Virus record (IMG/VR): IMGVR_UViG_3300034375_011509
Coordinates: 1 to 37,058 of that record
Strand: one strand, 5' to 3'
DNA from: a virus
Length of the DNA stretch: 37,058 nt
Shown here: positions 1 to 37,058 of the stretch, in pieces
Layout: each line of letters opens with the position of its first letter
Position numbering within the stretch: position 1 is the stretch's first letter
The notes under the pieces: generated by a model
Databases searched by the model: none
Seen by the model: only the letters and a program-made list of their open reading frames with translations
What the model was told of the DNA's origin: nothing
Position numbers and translations under genes: made by a program

Positions 1-127
1 CTGCCCCTTGGACGGTTGCTCTGCATCATCTTTGGGGGATTCTTTCAAGAATGCTTCCACCCATCGATCAGGAGGGGATGTGGTTGCGCCTAATTGCTCA
101 CCGACCTGTTCTTGAAGCGATTCAGTC
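1..127. repeat. Terminal direct repeat, copy 1 (circular overlap)
   Basis: The first 127 bases are identical to the last 127 (36932-37058). Exact identity over a length equal to a common assembler k-mer suggests the overlap of a circular assembly rather than a biological terminal repeat. The unique circle is then 36,931 bp. The overlap lies inside an open reading frame that continues in the same frame across the junction. Confidence 0.95.
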
Positions 128-16481: not shown

Positions 16482-17149
16482 AATCTTTCGGCTACCCCAT
16501 CCACTACGATGACTTTTGGGAGCTTTGCGACCCGAACCCGGATTCTCCCTTTCACCGACCCTTCGATCTTGGCCACGGGGAAACCTGCCTCGCCAATTCC
16601 CGCATGGCCCTCCGCACCACCCAGGCCGTTCACGCCGAGGATTGCGTCCCCTTCGATCAATCCCACACCGCCCGCGAGCGCATTCTCCGCCTCGATTGGT
16701 CCTTCTTTGATTTTCCCGAGCGCCGAGACCTCAAGGTGGGAGCCCTCCGCGACTGGGAACATTCATGGCGCCCTCTCACCGAGCGCGGAGGCCTCATTGC
16801 CCGCCCTCCCGTTCCCGCGTGGGAACCCACCACCGACTCCGCCAAGCGCGGAGGATTCGACTTTGTCGACAAGCCCCGCCTCACCGTCGGAGCCGACCTC
16901 GCCGTAATCCCCGTTTCCATTTTGCAGCTGATCCGCCGACTCCCCAACCCCGAGATCTTCACCGCCCGATACCAAGCCCCGACTCTTTCAAATCTCGAAT
17001 ATCGCTGGCTCTTCTTCCGCTTCACCGGTGGCCGGGGCATGGCCCCCAGCGTCCCCATGAAAGCCGGTCGCCCGTGGGACGGCATCCCCCCGGCTTATTC
17101 GATCTATGTCCCCACGCACGACACCCAACTCGAAATCCTCAACCCATGA
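16478..17149 (+). CDS. Hypothetical protein, 223 residues
   Basis: The N-terminal region contains HYDDFWELCDPNPDSPFHRP and FDLGHGETCLANSRMAL. The middle includes RLDWSFFDFPERRDLKV, and the C-terminus holds WLFFRFTGGRGMAPSVP. It is rich in aromatic residues and Pro, with no signal or membrane segment and no catalytic motif I can identify. ATGA overlaps lie at both ends. It lies between the DnaA-domain gene and the SDTPETD-type genes, so it is early and probably host-directed, but the family is unrecognised. Confidence 0.65.
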   Translation: MKSFGYPIHYDDFWELCDPNPDSPFHRPFDLGHGETCLANSRMALRTTQAVHAEDCVPFDQSHTARERILRLDWSFFDFPERRDLKVGALRDWEHSWRPLTERGGLIARPPVPAWEPTTDSAKRGGFDFVDKPRLTVGADLAVIPVSILQLIRRLPNPEIFTARYQAPTLSNLEYRWLFFRFTGGRGMAPSVPMKAGRPWDGIPPAYSIYVPTHDTQLEILNP

Positions 17150-17430
17150 GCGACACACCAGAAACAGATCAAAATTGCCTCGAAAACCCGAGCCCGATTC
17201 GCGAGGTCGTTTGCTCCGATTTTGCGCGGAAGCTCGAAAGAGAGCGCGATAAGGCCCAGGAACTAGCTGATGACCAATACGAACGGGCGAAGCATTACTT
17301 TAACGAGCGCAACAAGGCCGAGCTTCGAATCGCCATTCTCGAGCAAGACATAGCCCTGATCCGCAAGATCATCAAAAAGGGCGGGACCGCGCAGGACGTC
17401 ATGAAATTCTTGGACACGCCGGAAGCATGA
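17146..17430 (+). CDS. Small phage protein of the 'MSDTPETD' type, copy A
   Basis: A 94-residue protein. The N-terminal MSDTPETD and the FARKLERERD helix are typical of a widespread small phage protein family of unknown function; the rest is a coiled coil ending in a short helix (GTAQDVMKFLD). It is duplicated at 18521-18805, with the same length and 88 of 94 residues identical. A more distant relative lies at 17597. ATGA overlaps occur at both ends. Confidence 0.75.
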   Translation: MSDTPETDQNCLENPSPIREVVCSDFARKLERERDKAQELADDQYERAKHYFNERNKAELRIAILEQDIALIRKIIKKGGTAQDVMKFLDTPEA

Positions 17431-18210: not shown

Positions 18211-18524
18211 ACACCACTTCACAACCATCTTCAATCTTCGAATTGGTCGATTCGACCGCCGATGAGTATTACACCCTCGGACTTTTTTACAGCAAAGAGG
18301 AGGCCCTGGCCACCGCTACCAAAGGAGACCACCCGCCGACCGATTGCGAAGACAGCGCAACGCTACAAATCCGCGAGCGCAAAATCGGATTCACCGGATG
18401 GGGCAACAACGGAAAAATAATCGCGGAAATCCGGTGGGAAATCTCCTTCGATGAAGACGACGACGACTGGGGATGGGAAACCCCGAGTGTCTTTCTCAAA
18501 GATCAAACCGAGCCCAACCCATGA
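18207..18524 (+). CDS. Hypothetical acidic protein, 105 residues
   Basis: Features include an N-terminal ELVDSTADEYYTLGLFYSK, a strand-rich middle (ATLQIRERKIGFTGWGNNG) and a strongly acidic tail region (FDEDDDDWGW). Acidic patches of this sort occur in DNA-mimic inhibitors, but here only composition supports that idea. ATGA overlaps lie at both ends. The family is unrecognised. Confidence 0.6.
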   Translation: MNTTSQPSSIFELVDSTADEYYTLGLFYSKEEALATATKGDHPPTDCEDSATLQIRERKIGFTGWGNNGKIIAEIRWEISFDEDDDDWGWETPSVFLKDQTEPNP

Positions 18525-18805
18525 GTGAAACACCAGAAACCGATCGAAAATGCCTCGAAAATCCTAGCCCGATTCGCGAGGTCGTTTGCGCCGATTTCGC
18601 AAGGAAGCTTGAAAGAGAGCGCGATAAGGCCCAGGAACTAGCTGATGACCAATACGAACGGGCGAAGAATTACTTTAACGAGCGCAACAAGGCCGAGCTT
18701 CGAATCGCCATTCTCGAGCAAGACATAGCCCTGATCCGCAAGATCATCAAAAAGGGCGGGACAGCGCAGGACGTTATGAAATTCCTCGACAGGCCGGAAG
18801 CATGA
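18521..18805 (+). CDS. Small phage protein of the 'MSDTPETD' type, copy B
   Basis: A 94-residue near-duplicate of 17146-17430. The six differences are D3E, Q9R, N10K, S24A, H50N and T91R, and long stretches are identical at DNA level. Duplication therefore looks recent or homogenised by recombination, with three unrelated genes between the copies. It starts by ATGA overlap and ends in one. The function is unknown. Confidence 0.75.
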   Translation: MSETPETDRKCLENPSPIREVVCADFARKLERERDKAQELADDQYERAKNYFNERNKAELRIAILEQDIALIRKIIKKGGTAQDVMKFLDRPEA

Positions 18806-23570: not shown

Positions 23571-24569
23571 ATGACCGATGCCCCCACCGCCGAACCGACC
23601 GCCCTCCAACAGCAGTCCCAAGACCCCCCGGCCACGCCGCCCAGCCAATCCGCGCCCCGGCCCACCCGCCTCGCCGCTGCCGCTGGTGACCCCCCGGCCA
23701 CCCCGGCTACTCCGCAGGCCGCGCCCGTGACCACGCAGGCCCCCGCCCGGGGACCAGTCCAACCCACCGCCCAACCGGACAACACGCCACCCCTCCTCGG
23801 AGACGATCTGTCCCTCCGCCCCGGATGGGTCGACGCCCTCCCCGAGGAATACCGCGAGCACTACAAGACCGGCGCGAAATTCGACAATCTTGGAGGCCTC
23901 CTCAAATCCTATTCCAACCTCGAACGCCTCCGCAGCATTCCTTTACGCGACGCACCCGACGAGGTGAAAGCCGCTTTCCGCGACGCCAACAAAATCCCCG
24001 GAGATCCCGCCGAGTTTGCCAAACAAATCCCTCTCCCGGAAGGACAGGAGATCCCGCCGGAGCTCATTGCCCGCGCTGCCCAAGCCGGCCTCGAGGCCAA
24101 CATGCACCCGTCGCAGATGGGCGCCATGATCGACTTCCAGCTCCAACTTTCCCAAGACGCCCTCACCCAGGCCGAGCAATCCGCCCAAGCCGAGAAGGAC
24201 AAAGCCTTCGAAGCGCTCGAAAAGGAATGGGGACGCGACACCGAAGCCAATTACAGCAACGCCACCAGCGCCGCGAAAATGCTTGGCCTCGACATCGCCG
24301 ACCCAAACATCGGAGACAATCCCTCCCTCATCGGAGCCCTCGCCAAACTCCACGCCAAGCTCGATGAAGACACCCTTCGCAGCGTCGCCAATGCCGGACC
24401 CGTGAATTCTGGAGGTGGCATGGGAGACCGCGCCAAGGCCCGCGACATCGTGAACAACCCCGCCAACCCGCTTTACAAGCCTTACCACGACCCCAGCGAC
24501 CCCGCGCACGAACGCGCCCACCAGCAGGTGGATCTGTTCAATGCGGCCGCCACCGGCTTCCGCCCGTGA
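23571..24569 (+). CDS. Capsid scaffolding protein
   Basis: A 332-residue protein. A long disordered Ala/Pro/Gln N-terminus (to about residue 80) is followed by a conserved segment RPGWVDALPEEYREHYK and LGGLLKSYSNLERL, then long charged helices (FQLQLSQDALTQAEQSAQAE) and a basic/helical capsid-binding C-terminus. This layout, between portal and major capsid, is diagnostic for podovirus scaffold proteins that template the procapsid and then leave. The stop is immediately followed by the structured RNA region. Confidence 0.85.
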   Translation: MTDAPTAEPTALQQQSQDPPATPPSQSAPRPTRLAAAAGDPPATPATPQAAPVTTQAPARGPVQPTAQPDNTPPLLGDDLSLRPGWVDALPEEYREHYKTGAKFDNLGGLLKSYSNLERLRSIPLRDAPDEVKAAFRDANKIPGDPAEFAKQIPLPEGQEIPPELIARAAQAGLEANMHPSQMGAMIDFQLQLSQDALTQAEQSAQAEKDKAFEALEKEWGRDTEANYSNATSAAKMLGLDIADPNIGDNPSLIGALAKLHAKLDEDTLRSVANAGPVNSGGGMGDRAKARDIVNNPANPLYKPYHDPSDPAHERAHQQVDLFNAAATGFRP

Positions 24570-24578
24570 TAAAATAAT

Positions 24579-24906
24579 GCGTAGGCCCTTCCCGGCGAGG
24601 CTCTTCGATGGCTAGGGGAACTCAGAGAAAACCCATGACCCGGGAAGGTCCTACGCTCCACTTTTCTCTGACTCGATGGCATCGGTAATGTTTAACTACC
24701 CAGGGCGCCAAAGCTGGCCTCTTGGCTTGCTACTGGTGAAAACAGGCAAACTGCCTCGACCCTACCTGGCACGCGACCGGAGATAGGGCAAAAGATCGAA
24801 GCGCCGGATACGTTGGCAGTCGTCAAAAAAGCCGGATTCCGGTGCCATCGACTCAGAGAAAAAACCCACGCCCCGCCTCACCGCGCCACCACTGGCGCGG
24901 TTTTTT
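24579..24906 (+). ncRNA. Candidate structured noncoding RNA between scaffold and capsid
   Basis: This stretch has no credible coding frame. Helix 1: 24579-24595 pairs with 24640-24656 (16 of 17 pairs). Helix 2: 24663-24685 pairs with 24839-24861 (22 of 23 pairs including one G-U), closing an inner domain of about 153 nt. Inside, CCCTA/TAGGG with flanking TCGA/TCGA, GGCGC/GCGCC and ACTGCC/GGCAGT pairings are possible. An intrinsic terminator ends the unit. TCAGAGAAAA in the helix 1 loop can instead pair 10/10 with 24662-24671, competing with helix 2. I recognise no Rfam-type family. Roles to consider are packaging RNA, capsid-expression switch or antihost RNA. Confidence 0.6.
24880..24906 (+). 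terminator. Intrinsic terminator before the capsid gene
   Basis: ACCGCGCCA (24880-24888), loop CCAC, then TGGCGCGGT (24893-24901) form a perfect 9-bp GC-rich stem followed by TTTTT. It should stop rightward transcripts coming from the scaffold gene or end the candidate RNA. Confidence 0.88.
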
Positions 24907-24907
24907 G

Positions 24908-25131
24908 TTGACGCACACCCGCGCCCGTGCTTAAACGGGCCCACAGCTTGGCAGAGGACAATCCTTTCGGACCCGCTCCCAAGTCATTCCCAGGGATGAA
25001 TTGAAACTCCCCAGGTCTCACGACCCGCGCAAACGCGCCTCCCCGGTCAATCCGCATGGACCCGGTTGGATGGAGCCGACGCCGGCCAATCAAAGCCGCC
25101 CTCGAACCCAAACCCAACCCACTCAAAAACC
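24908..25131 (+). promoter_or_regulatory. Candidate capsid promoter and long leader
   Basis: TTGACG (24908-24913), a 17-bp spacer and TTAAAC (24931-24936) make a plausible promoter directly after the terminator; the -35 is good and the -10 weak. The roughly 190-nt leader has potential structure: CTTGG (24947-24951) with CCAAG (24979-24983) enclosing a 6-bp hairpin with triloop (24953-24967). No ORF of note is seen in it. Because the upstream terminator would cut read-through, a promoter here is expected to drive the abundant capsid protein. Confidence 0.5.
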
Positions 25132-26073
25132 ATGCCCACTGATATGACCGTGCCTGATCATTACCAGATCAAGTATGCCGACACCTTCGAATCTCGCCTT
25201 CAACAGAAGGTGAACCGCCTCGCCCCTTTCGTCACCGTGAAGCCGGACGCGAAAGGCAAGGTCTGCTTCCTGGACCAGATCCAGCCCATCGACCTCGACC
25301 AGAAGACCAGCCGCCACGAGAAATCCCAGCTCACCGAGCCGGATACCCTCCGCCGCGCGATGGTCGCCAAGACCTTCCACAAGATGATTGGCTTTGACGA
25401 GGACGACGAATTCAAGCTCAACAGCCAATCCGTCCCCATGCCGGAAACCGCCATGCAGCTCATGTATGGAGCGCAGCGCGCCATGGAGAAGGTCGTCATC
25501 GACGGCATCTCTGGCGTGAACCAAGTCGGCAACGGAGCCAATGACCTCCTCACCACCGAAACCTTCCCAAACGCGAATGAAATCGCCGTGACCGAAGGCT
25601 CCGCCGGTGGTGGCACCAACACCAACATGCCCATCGACAAGGTGATGGCCGCTATCGAGAAACTGATGGTCGACGAGGCTTTCGGCCAAGCAAACGACGA
25701 CGGCCTCGAAATGCCCTGCCTTGCCCTTGGACCCTCGCAGCTTGTCGACTTGATCCGCCAGACCAAGGCCAGCTCGAAGGACTACCAGCCCGGAGACAAC
25801 CTCGCCCTCTTCACTGGTCGCCTTGAGCAGATTCTCGGATGCAAGATCCTCCTTACCAACCAGCTCGAGGTCGCTTCCAACATCCGCACTTGCCTTGCTT
25901 GGGTGAAACCGTCCGTCGGCTTTGGCCTCTGGAAGAACTACTCGACCCACCTTTGGGTGGACGAGGAAACCGGTGGCCCTCGCCTCCGCGTTCACATGGC
26001 CTGCGGAGCCGCCCGCCGGGACACCAAGGGAGTCTTCAAGCTCTTTGCCGACGAGACCAAGAAATCCGCCTAA
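25132..26073 (+). CDS. Major capsid protein
   Basis: A 313-residue protein. Motifs such as HYQIKYADTFESRLQQKVNRL and HEKSQLTEPDTLRRAMVAK at the N-terminus, LGPSQLVDLIRQTKASS in the middle and THLWVDEETGGPRLRV near the C-terminus match the capsid family of podoviruses with a separate scaffold, inferred to have the HK97 fold. It is placed after scaffold and before decoration and tail-tube genes. The gene has its own candidate promoter and is followed 18 nt later by a strong terminator, consistent with high, separate expression. The start at 25132 (AACCATG) follows the leader; there is no Shine-Dalgarno. Confidence 0.85.
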   Translation: MPTDMTVPDHYQIKYADTFESRLQQKVNRLAPFVTVKPDAKGKVCFLDQIQPIDLDQKTSRHEKSQLTEPDTLRRAMVAKTFHKMIGFDEDDEFKLNSQSVPMPETAMQLMYGAQRAMEKVVIDGISGVNQVGNGANDLLTTETFPNANEIAVTEGSAGGGTNTNMPIDKVMAAIEKLMVDEAFGQANDDGLEMPCLALGPSQLVDLIRQTKASSKDYQPGDNLALFTGRLEQILGCKILLTNQLEVASNIRTCLAWVKPSVGFGLWKNYSTHLWVDEETGGPRLRVHMACGAARRDTKGVFKLFADETKKSA

Positions 26074-26090
26074 CCCAAACCCTCAAAACT

Positions 26091-26125
26091 AAAAAGGGGG
26101 GAGGCCCCACGCTTCCCCCCTTTTT
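26091..26125. terminator. Strong intrinsic terminator after the capsid gene
   Basis: A 15-bp stem runs from AAAAAGGGGGGA (26091-26102) and GGC to GCT and TCCCCCCTTTTT (26114-26125), with a 5-nt loop and one G-U pair. A-tract on one side and T-tract on the other make it bidirectional. Partial read-through would be needed to express the decoration and tail genes, unless they have their own promoter. Confidence 0.9.
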
Positions 26126-26143
26126 AACAACCCAGCAAATACC

Positions 26144-35800: not shown

Positions 35801-37058
35801 AGGAAGCCACCGGCAACGCATACATCGCCGACGATTACACCTACGCCGACACCGACAAAATGCCCCTCCTCGAGGCCATGTCAAAAGCGGGCGTGGAATA
35901 CTTCATGGGGAACATCAAAAACGACATGATCCCCTCGACCATCCGCCGATGGTTCCAACAAATCCTTGCCGTCGCCGGAGCGATGTTCCGCCACGCCCGC
36001 ACGCTCGCCCGATCCGAACCGCTGATGAAGGCGATCAAGGAAGGCCGCGTGAATCAAAAGTTTGTCGACCTCATCGCCGACAGCGTCGGATTGAATGAAG
36101 CCAACACCGAGGCCCGCTACCGCGCCGCCGAGCAGCAGGCCCAAGAGCAGGCCCTCAATTCCGACCTCGAAGAGATTTCCGACGTCCTCCGCGGCCGCCT
36201 CCCTCACCCCGACAGCATGGCAGGTGACCCCATGGCTTCCGAACTCCGCGTCATTCACGATGGCATGGTGAAGGTGAGCAAGCGCCGGAACAAGAAGGGC
36301 CAGCGCCTTCTCAACACCCGCAAGGCCGACAACTTCTTCCTGCCGCGGGGCGAGGTCGTTTCCATCGACGGCATTCGCGAGGAATTGAACGAGCGCGGAT
36401 TCGACTTCGACACCGAGGCCGACATGCTCGCCGCCCTCGACGACTCTCTCTACCGCAACCTCAAAACCTACGCCGTAGGAACGATGGAGCAGGAGACGAC
36501 CTATTCGATTTCTCAGTTCAGTACAGGCATGAGACCACCGAAAGGTGTGACCAGTAGAAAAACGGAAGCCCTGCCAGTTTGGAATATAGAGAAGCAAAAG
36601 GATAGCCTTCCAAAGGTAATCGCCAACAAAACACAGCGTGAGGCTTTCTTTAAAAGGTTGGATGATGCGCTGGATTGGCTGCGTGAAGACCCTTCCAAAT
36701 TGGGAACAGCTGGAGGATGGGTGAAATTCTTGAGGAAAGCAGGGGTCTATGGGGAGGTTCCAATGCCTCCCACTGGAATCACGGAACTATTTGAAAACCC
36801 TGCTGGATACGCTGAAAAAGTTCGGGGGGCGTATCATGGGGACCTGGCTATTTCGGGAACAAACGCATCAGCAAAAGCGGGGTTAGACGGAACAAAGGAA
36901 ATGCGTGAGCTTATCGGGGAAGGGAAAGCCCCTGCCCCTTGGACGGTTGCTCTGCATCATCTTTGGGGGATTCTTTCAAGAATGCTTCCACCCATCGATC
37001 AGGAGGGGATGTGGTTGCGCCTAATTGCTCACCGACCTGTTCTTGAAGCGATTCAGTC
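32869..37058 (+). CDS. Giant polyvalent virion protein, N-terminal part (continues at position 1)
   Basis: Starts by ATGA overlap with the internal virion gene and stays open to the window end; the frame continues exactly into 3-5222 after closing the circle (total 3,094 residues). Residues 1-390 are helical and charged. About 390-480 is Gly/Ala-rich and hydrophobic, and 547-564 is a hydrophobic helix (FYAIVPFALIGSGVVASF). Residues about 645-760 resemble an ADP-ribosyltransferase (LFHAGDQ, then TYGGLYTFDNQTEADNW) in an AT-rich patch. Residues about 770-1200 are helical again. From 1205 (nt 36481) a second AT-rich domain begins. The architecture fits phage polyvalent proteins ejected into the host. 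The exact start is supported by coupling only. Confidence 0.88.
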   Translation, partial: MSDLNPSPFIASPLAPINLAEEYGPESELTEARAFQALHLLEAFPKPTITPGTPPPPNPLRDYLRRYAADRESRGLKFFPKENAKANQKRIQYSRDLYLKSPEDLLTGDQLKAYEADLTEMPDPDSYRARQTNRAYFNLIAPTPIAPDRYDLVRDEYARAVLKLDDTSDKAVFSAIQAQFQEEASAFDSLKPLAKEAFDKGLTGQPLSAADRWRATAALPAKHKRNAREVLAAQHQEAQATRRRLMPTVKFLATSMLSRRGMDVPRDLASPEASATSREWLRALGELNPPDRAAALFILSQEMEKLDTADDSAGTFKRAATNASKTALQLLESAFTMIDSETSEGFLDEEDRWTIDADERARLTAALQGIESIPENFRPDDSALQKAFIAGSGQAAILGSLFTGAAGLTFLGTSMAGQSYAGQRLESPEADRAIQYGAATLSGTAQAATEIYLTKLGLKMIGGRLPGLATLFTKARITAPVARSLAAFPLAAAGASAVEFTEEIVQDATDNLLSDIANELSGIDPATDWGEFLTRWTTKNRTTEEVFYAIVPFALIGSGVVASFRHFKHGAYLQQATPIMAKMGFRSDKIKEIREASPEEAARIVREEIKHVKEKAEDRSKAAAASQPASQLAKEAPNRAAKQFDLFHAGDQSLTFETISVDPRKTRQGKTGTYGGLYTFDNQTEADNWNSDLEGKEVFGIKLKDGVKIEQYDKQIERLDQTELENLRAQGIKVISGKSLLGKREIVIIDKTAIASFEPLSKLQSDNSSKTSQDESERSSVLESFREAAELSQKAGFPILETELNEFTEQEQYVLRLPEQEEQYFDDEEQAIEAWQDFLIQQQNEVSAEVIRAANTDLISFLTEESQLAFGTKVRERDVEMDAARAVKEGLATMEQIKARARIFALQEGSSTAPDFAIMARRWAEVTTRGIYRATVEYYRGANPLNILEDLAETNIDKGLTMGMLDGAELVSELRALEEATGNAYIADDYTYADTDKMPLLEAMSKAGVEYFMGNIKNDMIPSTIRRWFQQILAVAGAMFRHARTLARSEPLMKAIKEGRVNQKFVDLIADSVGLNEANTEARYRAAEQQAQEQALNSDLEEISDVLRGRLPHPDSMAGDPMASELRVIHDGMVKVSKRRNKKGQRLLNTRKADNFFLPRGEVVSIDGIREELNERGFDFDTEADMLAALDDSLYRNLKTYAVGTMEQETTYSISQFSTGMRPPKGVTSRKTEALPVWNIEKQKDSLPKVIANKTQREAFFKRLDDALDWLREDPSKLGTAGGWVKFLRKAGVYGEVPMPPTGITELFENPAGYAEKVRGAYHGDLAISGTNASAKAGLDGTKEMRELIGEGKAPAPWTVALHHLWGILSRMLPPIDQEGMWLRLIAHRPVLEAIQ
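34800..35150 (+). other. Second ADP-ribosyltransferase-like domain, in an AT-rich patch of the giant gene
   Basis: The motifs FDLFHAGDQSLTF, TYGGLYTFDNQTEADNW and a following VFGIKLKDGVKIEQ strand follow the order His strand, Gly-Leu-Tyr strand, helix and core strand of ART domains. The clear ART is near residue 1724; this one (His648) is more divergent. Local GC is 40-43% in 34921-35040 against about 57% upstream, so the domain may be a separate acquisition. No catalytic Glu was assigned. Confidence 0.5.
36932..37058. repeat. Terminal direct repeat, copy 2 (circular overlap)
   Basis: Identical to 1-127; see copy 1. Removing either copy yields the 36,931-bp circle and restores the giant open reading frame. 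Confidence 0.95.

Follow-up and report, generated by a model that had tools for sequence, protein, structure and literature searches.

In T7-type phages, long hairpins separate late genes in the scaffold and capsid region (the RNase III hairpins and the gene 10 leader) and are processed by RNase III; the gene order portal, scaffold, capsid and tail tube is conserved. The phage locus described here is like that arrangement in both respects, with the hairpins compared in layout alone. Output of coat protein must far exceed that of the other late proteins, and the mechanism used by phages without their own RNA polymerase is poorly described beyond model phages.

The locus is part of an IMG/VR record of 37,058 bp, all of which was analysed (the window). 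An exact 127-bp repeat at the two ends (window 1-127 and 36932-37058), together with a contig of the same phage (L005) that bridges the junction, indicates that the genome is probably complete; its form is probably circular or circularly permuted. The genes for a head-tail connector (phrog_332), a scaffold-like protein (phrog_3742), a major head protein (phrog_3437) and a tail tube protein (phrog_376) follow each other in this order. On sequence comparison the phage belongs with the HTVC010P-like podoviruses; its best named relatives are mainly Pelagibacter phages, plus two spring-water phages and one Alteromonas phage, with capsid identity of 22-28%. A blastn search of phage records gave zero matches. 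A scan of the window for tRNA and tmRNA genes detected none, and none of the ORFs compared with Pfam or PHROGs (not all small ORFs among them) encodes a reverse transcriptase, the gene that would adjoin a retron msr-msd. A 291-bp segment is duplicated with 94% identity at window 17140-17430 and 18515-18805, ~1.4 kb apart and immediately 5' of the terminase large-subunit gene.

The original prediction was a new structured RNA in a gap of 560 bp between the scaffold and capsid genes, built of two long helices and a terminator. The gap measures 562 bp (24570-25131). Helix 1 lies where it had been placed (Table 1), with 16 of 17 positions paired and one C.U mismatch. Helix 2 is real as well; its extent, first given as 24663-24685 with 24839-24861, was too short, and the full helix has 22 Watson-Crick pairs, one G.U and one C.C in 24 positions. 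The terminator, also as described, has a 9-bp stem (24880-24901) with a 4-nt loop and a T-run that reaches 24906.

Table 1. Features of the scaffold-capsid gap and its surroundings (window coordinates)
Feature	Position	Strand	Evidence or remark
Scaffold/capsid-assembly protein gene	23571..24569	+	phrog_3742 match; weakly phrog_458 protease; tblastn against capsid assembly proteins of HTVC010P type
TGATAAAAT, extended -10-like box overlapping scaffold stop codon, no -35	24567..24575	+	Seen in sequence; not called by promoter scan
Scaffold stop-to-terminator segment, ~280 nt longer than the 20-56 nt of relatives	24570..24879	+	Comparison; without homolog
Helix 1, 5' arm	24579..24595	+	Pair probability 0.93-1.0 except one mismatch
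26-codon ORF MARGTQRKPMTREGPTLHFSLTRWHR, GAGG upstream, stop codon right after helix 2 5' arm	24608..24688	+	
ACTCAGAGAAAA, in helix 1 loop, exact direct repeat of 24851-24862	24620..24631	+	
Helix 1, 3' arm	24640..24656	+	Inverted-repeat ranking, predicted pairing
Helix 2, 5' arm	24662..24685	+	Inverted-repeat ranking, predicted pairing, Markov simulation
Sequence enclosed by helix 2 (153 nt)	24686..24838	+	Structure no greater than shuffles, z -0.38
Helix 2, 3' arm	24839..24862	+	Inverted-repeat ranking, predicted pairing, Markov simulation
Intrinsic terminator, G+C-rich stem and T-run, ancestral to site	24880..24906	+	Terminator scan; comparison with relatives
Promoter-like TTGACG-N17-TTAAAC for capsid unit, weak -10	24908..24936	+	Sequence; relatives have TTGAC boxes at the corresponding place
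Candidate degenerate leader-family member, first hairpin region ACAAUCC..GGACC	24945..25029	+	7.6 bits, E 0.049 in 581-nt stretch
Major capsid protein gene	25132..26073	+	phrog_3437
Post-capsid terminator, long hairpin and T-run directly 3' of capsid gene	26090..26126	+	

Among inverted repeats spanning at most 220 nt in the window, helix 2 ranks top and helix 1 is tied second; predicted pair probabilities of both are near 1. Chance was assessed with 400 first-order Markov genomes of the same dinucleotide make-up, taking the best helix score per genome. Genome-wide, the score of helix 2 (16) was reached in 2 of the 400, and a score of at least 13, as for helix 1, in 54. Two helices of such score inside 300 nt are therefore well beyond chance, which bears out the claim that they are very improbable as random pairings.

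Compared with shuffles, the fold of 24570-24910 has a z-score of -4.8 and that of the long-helix domain -6.3. This excess stability sits in the helix arms, because the interior of helix 2 taken alone, which in a complex fold would beat its shuffles, and the loop of helix 1 (z +0.44) both fold like shuffled sequence. The minus strand folds almost equally well (z -4.9), so that folding by itself is no proof of RNA as the selected form; the unstructured interior and the folding of both strands are also compatible with an inverted repeat at the DNA level.

Three copies of ACTCAGAGAAAA, one of them with a mismatch, are present at 24620-24631, 24662-24673 and 24851-24862 (orientations +, - and +). 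The first could pair with 24662-24671, in the helix 2 5' arm, at about -12 kcal/mol versus -38 for helix 2 itself. Together with the helix 2 arm the copies possibly make a switch or pseudoknot; alternatively, they may be left over from a duplication. No convincing protein-coding gene was seen in the hairpin segment, where the sole ORF, of 26 codons, is doubtful and probably fortuitous.

About 150 relatives were gathered by searches with the tail tube protein; a capsid profile was unsuited for this purpose (very distant phages without conserved stretches). In relatives without extra genes the scaffold-capsid gap is mostly 150-310 bp. A terminator-like hairpin, where the simple scan detected one (in several relatives none was seen), begins 20-56 nt past the scaffold stop codon; L144, where the case is weak, has it at 80 nt. 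Usually a box, TTGAC or TTGTC, comes next, no more than 36 nt after the terminator, and from terminator to capsid start codon the distance is mostly 166-223 nt (134 and 149 nt in two relatives). The window has the same order, with 310 nt before the terminator, TTGACG at +7 and then 230 nt to the capsid gene. Since the order is shared and 310 nt stand against 20-56 nt, the hairpins make up an extra segment of ~280 nt ahead of an ancestral terminator. Being ancestral to the site, the terminator lends no support to a dedicated RNA gene.

In one soil clade among the relatives, the scaffold-capsid slot holds ~1.7-2.0 kb of sequence that includes three small genes; thus the site tolerates insertions. 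The extra genes occupy L025:1687-2962, with equivalents in L026, L028, L048, L058 and L091, and the first of them (246 aa) has the GD, GNHE and GHTH motifs of calcineurin-like phosphoesterases, as judged by eye. A tRNA gene (Rfam RF00005, 60.9 bits) was observed in the structural gene region of another relative (L019:1670-1741).

No known RNA family accounts for the gap, as had been supposed by inspection: a search of the whole window against Rfam 15 gave 0 matches, and at loose thresholds the best score in the gap was 19.4 bits versus a cut-off of 70. Other copies of the hairpin element were found only in two contigs from two other metagenomes; both belong to the same phage, are identical across the whole gap and, over longer shared stretches, show no more than one base of difference from the window. 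Searches of all relatives with blastn and nhmmer (some records being incomplete) produced no homolog, nor did a covariance model built from the single hairpin sequence, insensitive to distant relatives, in 84 loci and 24 records. Viral contigs were scanned with arm patterns of either helix, and the genome contigs of 84,980 species with those of helix 2; no further element came to light. Additional viral matches were located inside open frames without a partner arm, and the arm of helix 1 occurred elsewhere as single matches only. The idea that the arms are a dispersed bacterial repeat was rejected, given that the two exact matches fall within coding genes or at a gene's end and have no partner arm. 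Judged from these searches, the hairpin element is an orphan, specific to its lineage, among the data examined. The hairpins are absent from all examined relatives, and their conservation as an RNA is not supported.

In many HTVC010P-like phages this gap holds a different structured RNA, which directly precedes the major capsid gene (L025:3198-3385, L127:1231-1410, L022:3031-3121, L147:3791-3885 and ~80 other loci). Family models R1 and R3 were built from the relatives, and 83 members were aligned. In the soil clade, TTTTGACTAAACCC precedes the capsid start by ~209 nt and GGGTTTAGTCAAAA is situated just 5' of the ribosome-binding site, and the leader is closed by a 14-bp helix adjoining that site. 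The closing helix shows a compensatory change, AGACC/GGTCT in L127, L130 and others versus AAACC/GGTTT. A core of ~90 nt is common to other clades; it consists of a hairpin, [GGCAG]ACAA[CUC]..[GAG]C[CUGUC], and then an internal-loop stem, GAC-GACCC..GGAUAAUCGG.

The initial MAFFT alignment of the leaders misplaced several members and was replaced by a smaller set and a model-based alignment. When 12 members were aligned by sequence only, both partners vary in 7 out of 20 pairs; shuffles average 2.9, and 2 in 500 reach that number. The proportion of pairing cells is 86.6%, versus at most 43% in slid controls. Alignments fitted to the model, which lean towards the structure, comprise 24 and 41 distinct sequences and have 11 covarying pairs (0 of 500 shuffles). 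When L158, L133, L140 and L144 were left out of training, the model recovered all four (44 to 27 bits), each directly 5' of the capsid gene. Matches to the core pattern have the capsid gene directly downstream in 58 cases out of 62, the other 4 being within 200 nt of contig ends, and nine of the ten records searched whole contain a single copy. There was no match for the leader in Rfam, and in the literature searched for structured RNAs at phage capsid genes we found no description of it. Viral contigs have been screened for structured RNAs on a large scale in published work, and earlier detection in one such screen is possible. By these comparisons, the capsid leader of the relatives is a covarying RNA that Rfam lacks.

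The idea of a new structured RNA at this site holds in part: the helices are real and not due to chance, no Rfam family covers them, and a conserved structured RNA does exist in the scaffold-capsid gap of the group. That conserved RNA, however, is the capsid leader 3' of the terminator and not the hairpins, the interior of helix 2 is not unusually structured, and the terminator belongs to the ancestral site rather than to a dedicated non-coding RNA gene.

The window's own leader (24907-25131) has its candidate match at the expected place, and a wider search with R1 gave 4.2 bits (E 2.3, not significant); with the marginal score in Table 1 it is at most a degenerate member of the family. In the hairpin segment (24570-24906) both models scored at noise level, the best hits wholly inside it on the + strand being 2.1 bits (R1) and 1.4 bits (R3). 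A similar arm layout and a common CGGATAC.TYGG motif had made helix 2 a candidate for an upstream copy of the leader RNA, which the covariance models ruled out. The leader family and the hairpins are alike in their location in the same gap 5' of the major capsid gene and in that some leaders are closed by a long helix (TTTTGACTAAACCC/GGGTTTAGTCAAAA); they differ in that the hairpins lie upstream of the terminator and have no core motif in common with the leaders, besides the noise-level scores.

Our preferred reading, held tentatively, is that the gap is composite: an ancestral layout in the 3' part and, 5' of it, a lineage-specific non-coding insertion of ~280 nt that would act as a 3'-end processing and stability element. 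The ancestral part would comprise the terminator of the portal-scaffold transcript (24880-24906), the promoter-like box (24908-24936) and a capsid mRNA leader (~24945-25131). It would form a transcriptional boundary, where the portal-scaffold transcript ends and the capsid gene uses its own promoter and leader. The 5' part (24570-24879) may form the 3' end of the scaffold transcript, or a weak promoter over the scaffold stop codon may drive its transcription; the transcribed segment would fold into the two long hairpins and terminate at the terminator. By analogy with the T7-type hairpins, these could be RNase III-type substrates, whose cleavage would free a stable RNA of ~325 nt, guard against 3' decay and set the capsid unit apart.

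The main rival is an independent RNA, namely a dedicated gene (24579-24906) for a trans-acting phage sRNA with TGATAAAAT as its own promoter, a 5'-terminal hairpin, a structured body and the terminator, targeting host or phage RNAs or proteins. The succession of hairpin, long helix and terminator fits such a gene, and so do the extended -10-like box immediately before helix 1, possibly the promoter of a hairpin RNA, and the accessory genes that relatives hold in the same slot. Nevertheless, the box lacks a -35, the terminator is ancestral to the site, the interior of helix 2 is plain and no homologs were found, and we consider a dedicated gene doubtful. Next comes an inverted-repeat insertion at the DNA level, MITE-like or a product of recombination and without RNA function. 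Nearly perfect arms around an unstructured interior, the similar folding of both strands, an imperfect direct repeat (ACTCAGAGAAAA(AA)CCCA at 24620 and 24851) and a site tolerant of insertions are all in line with it. A MITE should be present in multiple copies, however, and exact arm patterns detected no other copy in the viral contigs or the genomes, the remaining matches having no partner arm or lying in reading frames; inspection of 24655-24870 by eye found no target-site duplication flanking the arms; and the segment ends just before a + strand terminator with a T-run. An insertion of this kind is unlikely in our judgement.

It is quite improbable that the upstream hairpins are functionally part of the capsid leader, for example as an attenuator of read-through into the capsid gene. 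The third arm copy (24620-24631) does offer an alternative pairing with 24662-24671, the 26-codon ORF overlaps the arms, and soil-clade leaders too have a long closing helix; still, inspection revealed no antiterminator that would compete with the terminator, the alternative pairing is far weaker than helix 2, the leader-family models score nothing meaningful in the segment, and relatives have terminator and leader without the hairpins. We think it just as improbable that the ~90-nt covarying structure, with its long closing helix beside the ribosome-binding site in one clade, defines a new class of capsid-leader RNA, one that would time capsid synthesis by sensing a protein or another signal, with the window's leader decayed and the upstream hairpin RNA partly in control instead.

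With the composite gap as the preferred reading, the boundary between scaffold and capsid can be drawn as a testable plan (terminator, promoter, leader RNA, capsid) for a widespread and mostly uncultured group of podoviruses, and the leader RNA with compensatory changes, absent from Rfam, has come from analysis of the neighbourhood. Pending a diverged homolog or a transcript, the window hairpins are a lineage-specific curiosity. They can be set beside phage-derived sRNAs, as far as the accounts of IsrK of Gifsy-1 (PMC4825925) and of the wider group in a review (PMC12197685) describe them. Unlike these sRNAs, the window segment is without a sequence or Rfam match and its RNA is putative; like them, it combines a non-coding stretch, a possible promoter and a terminator.
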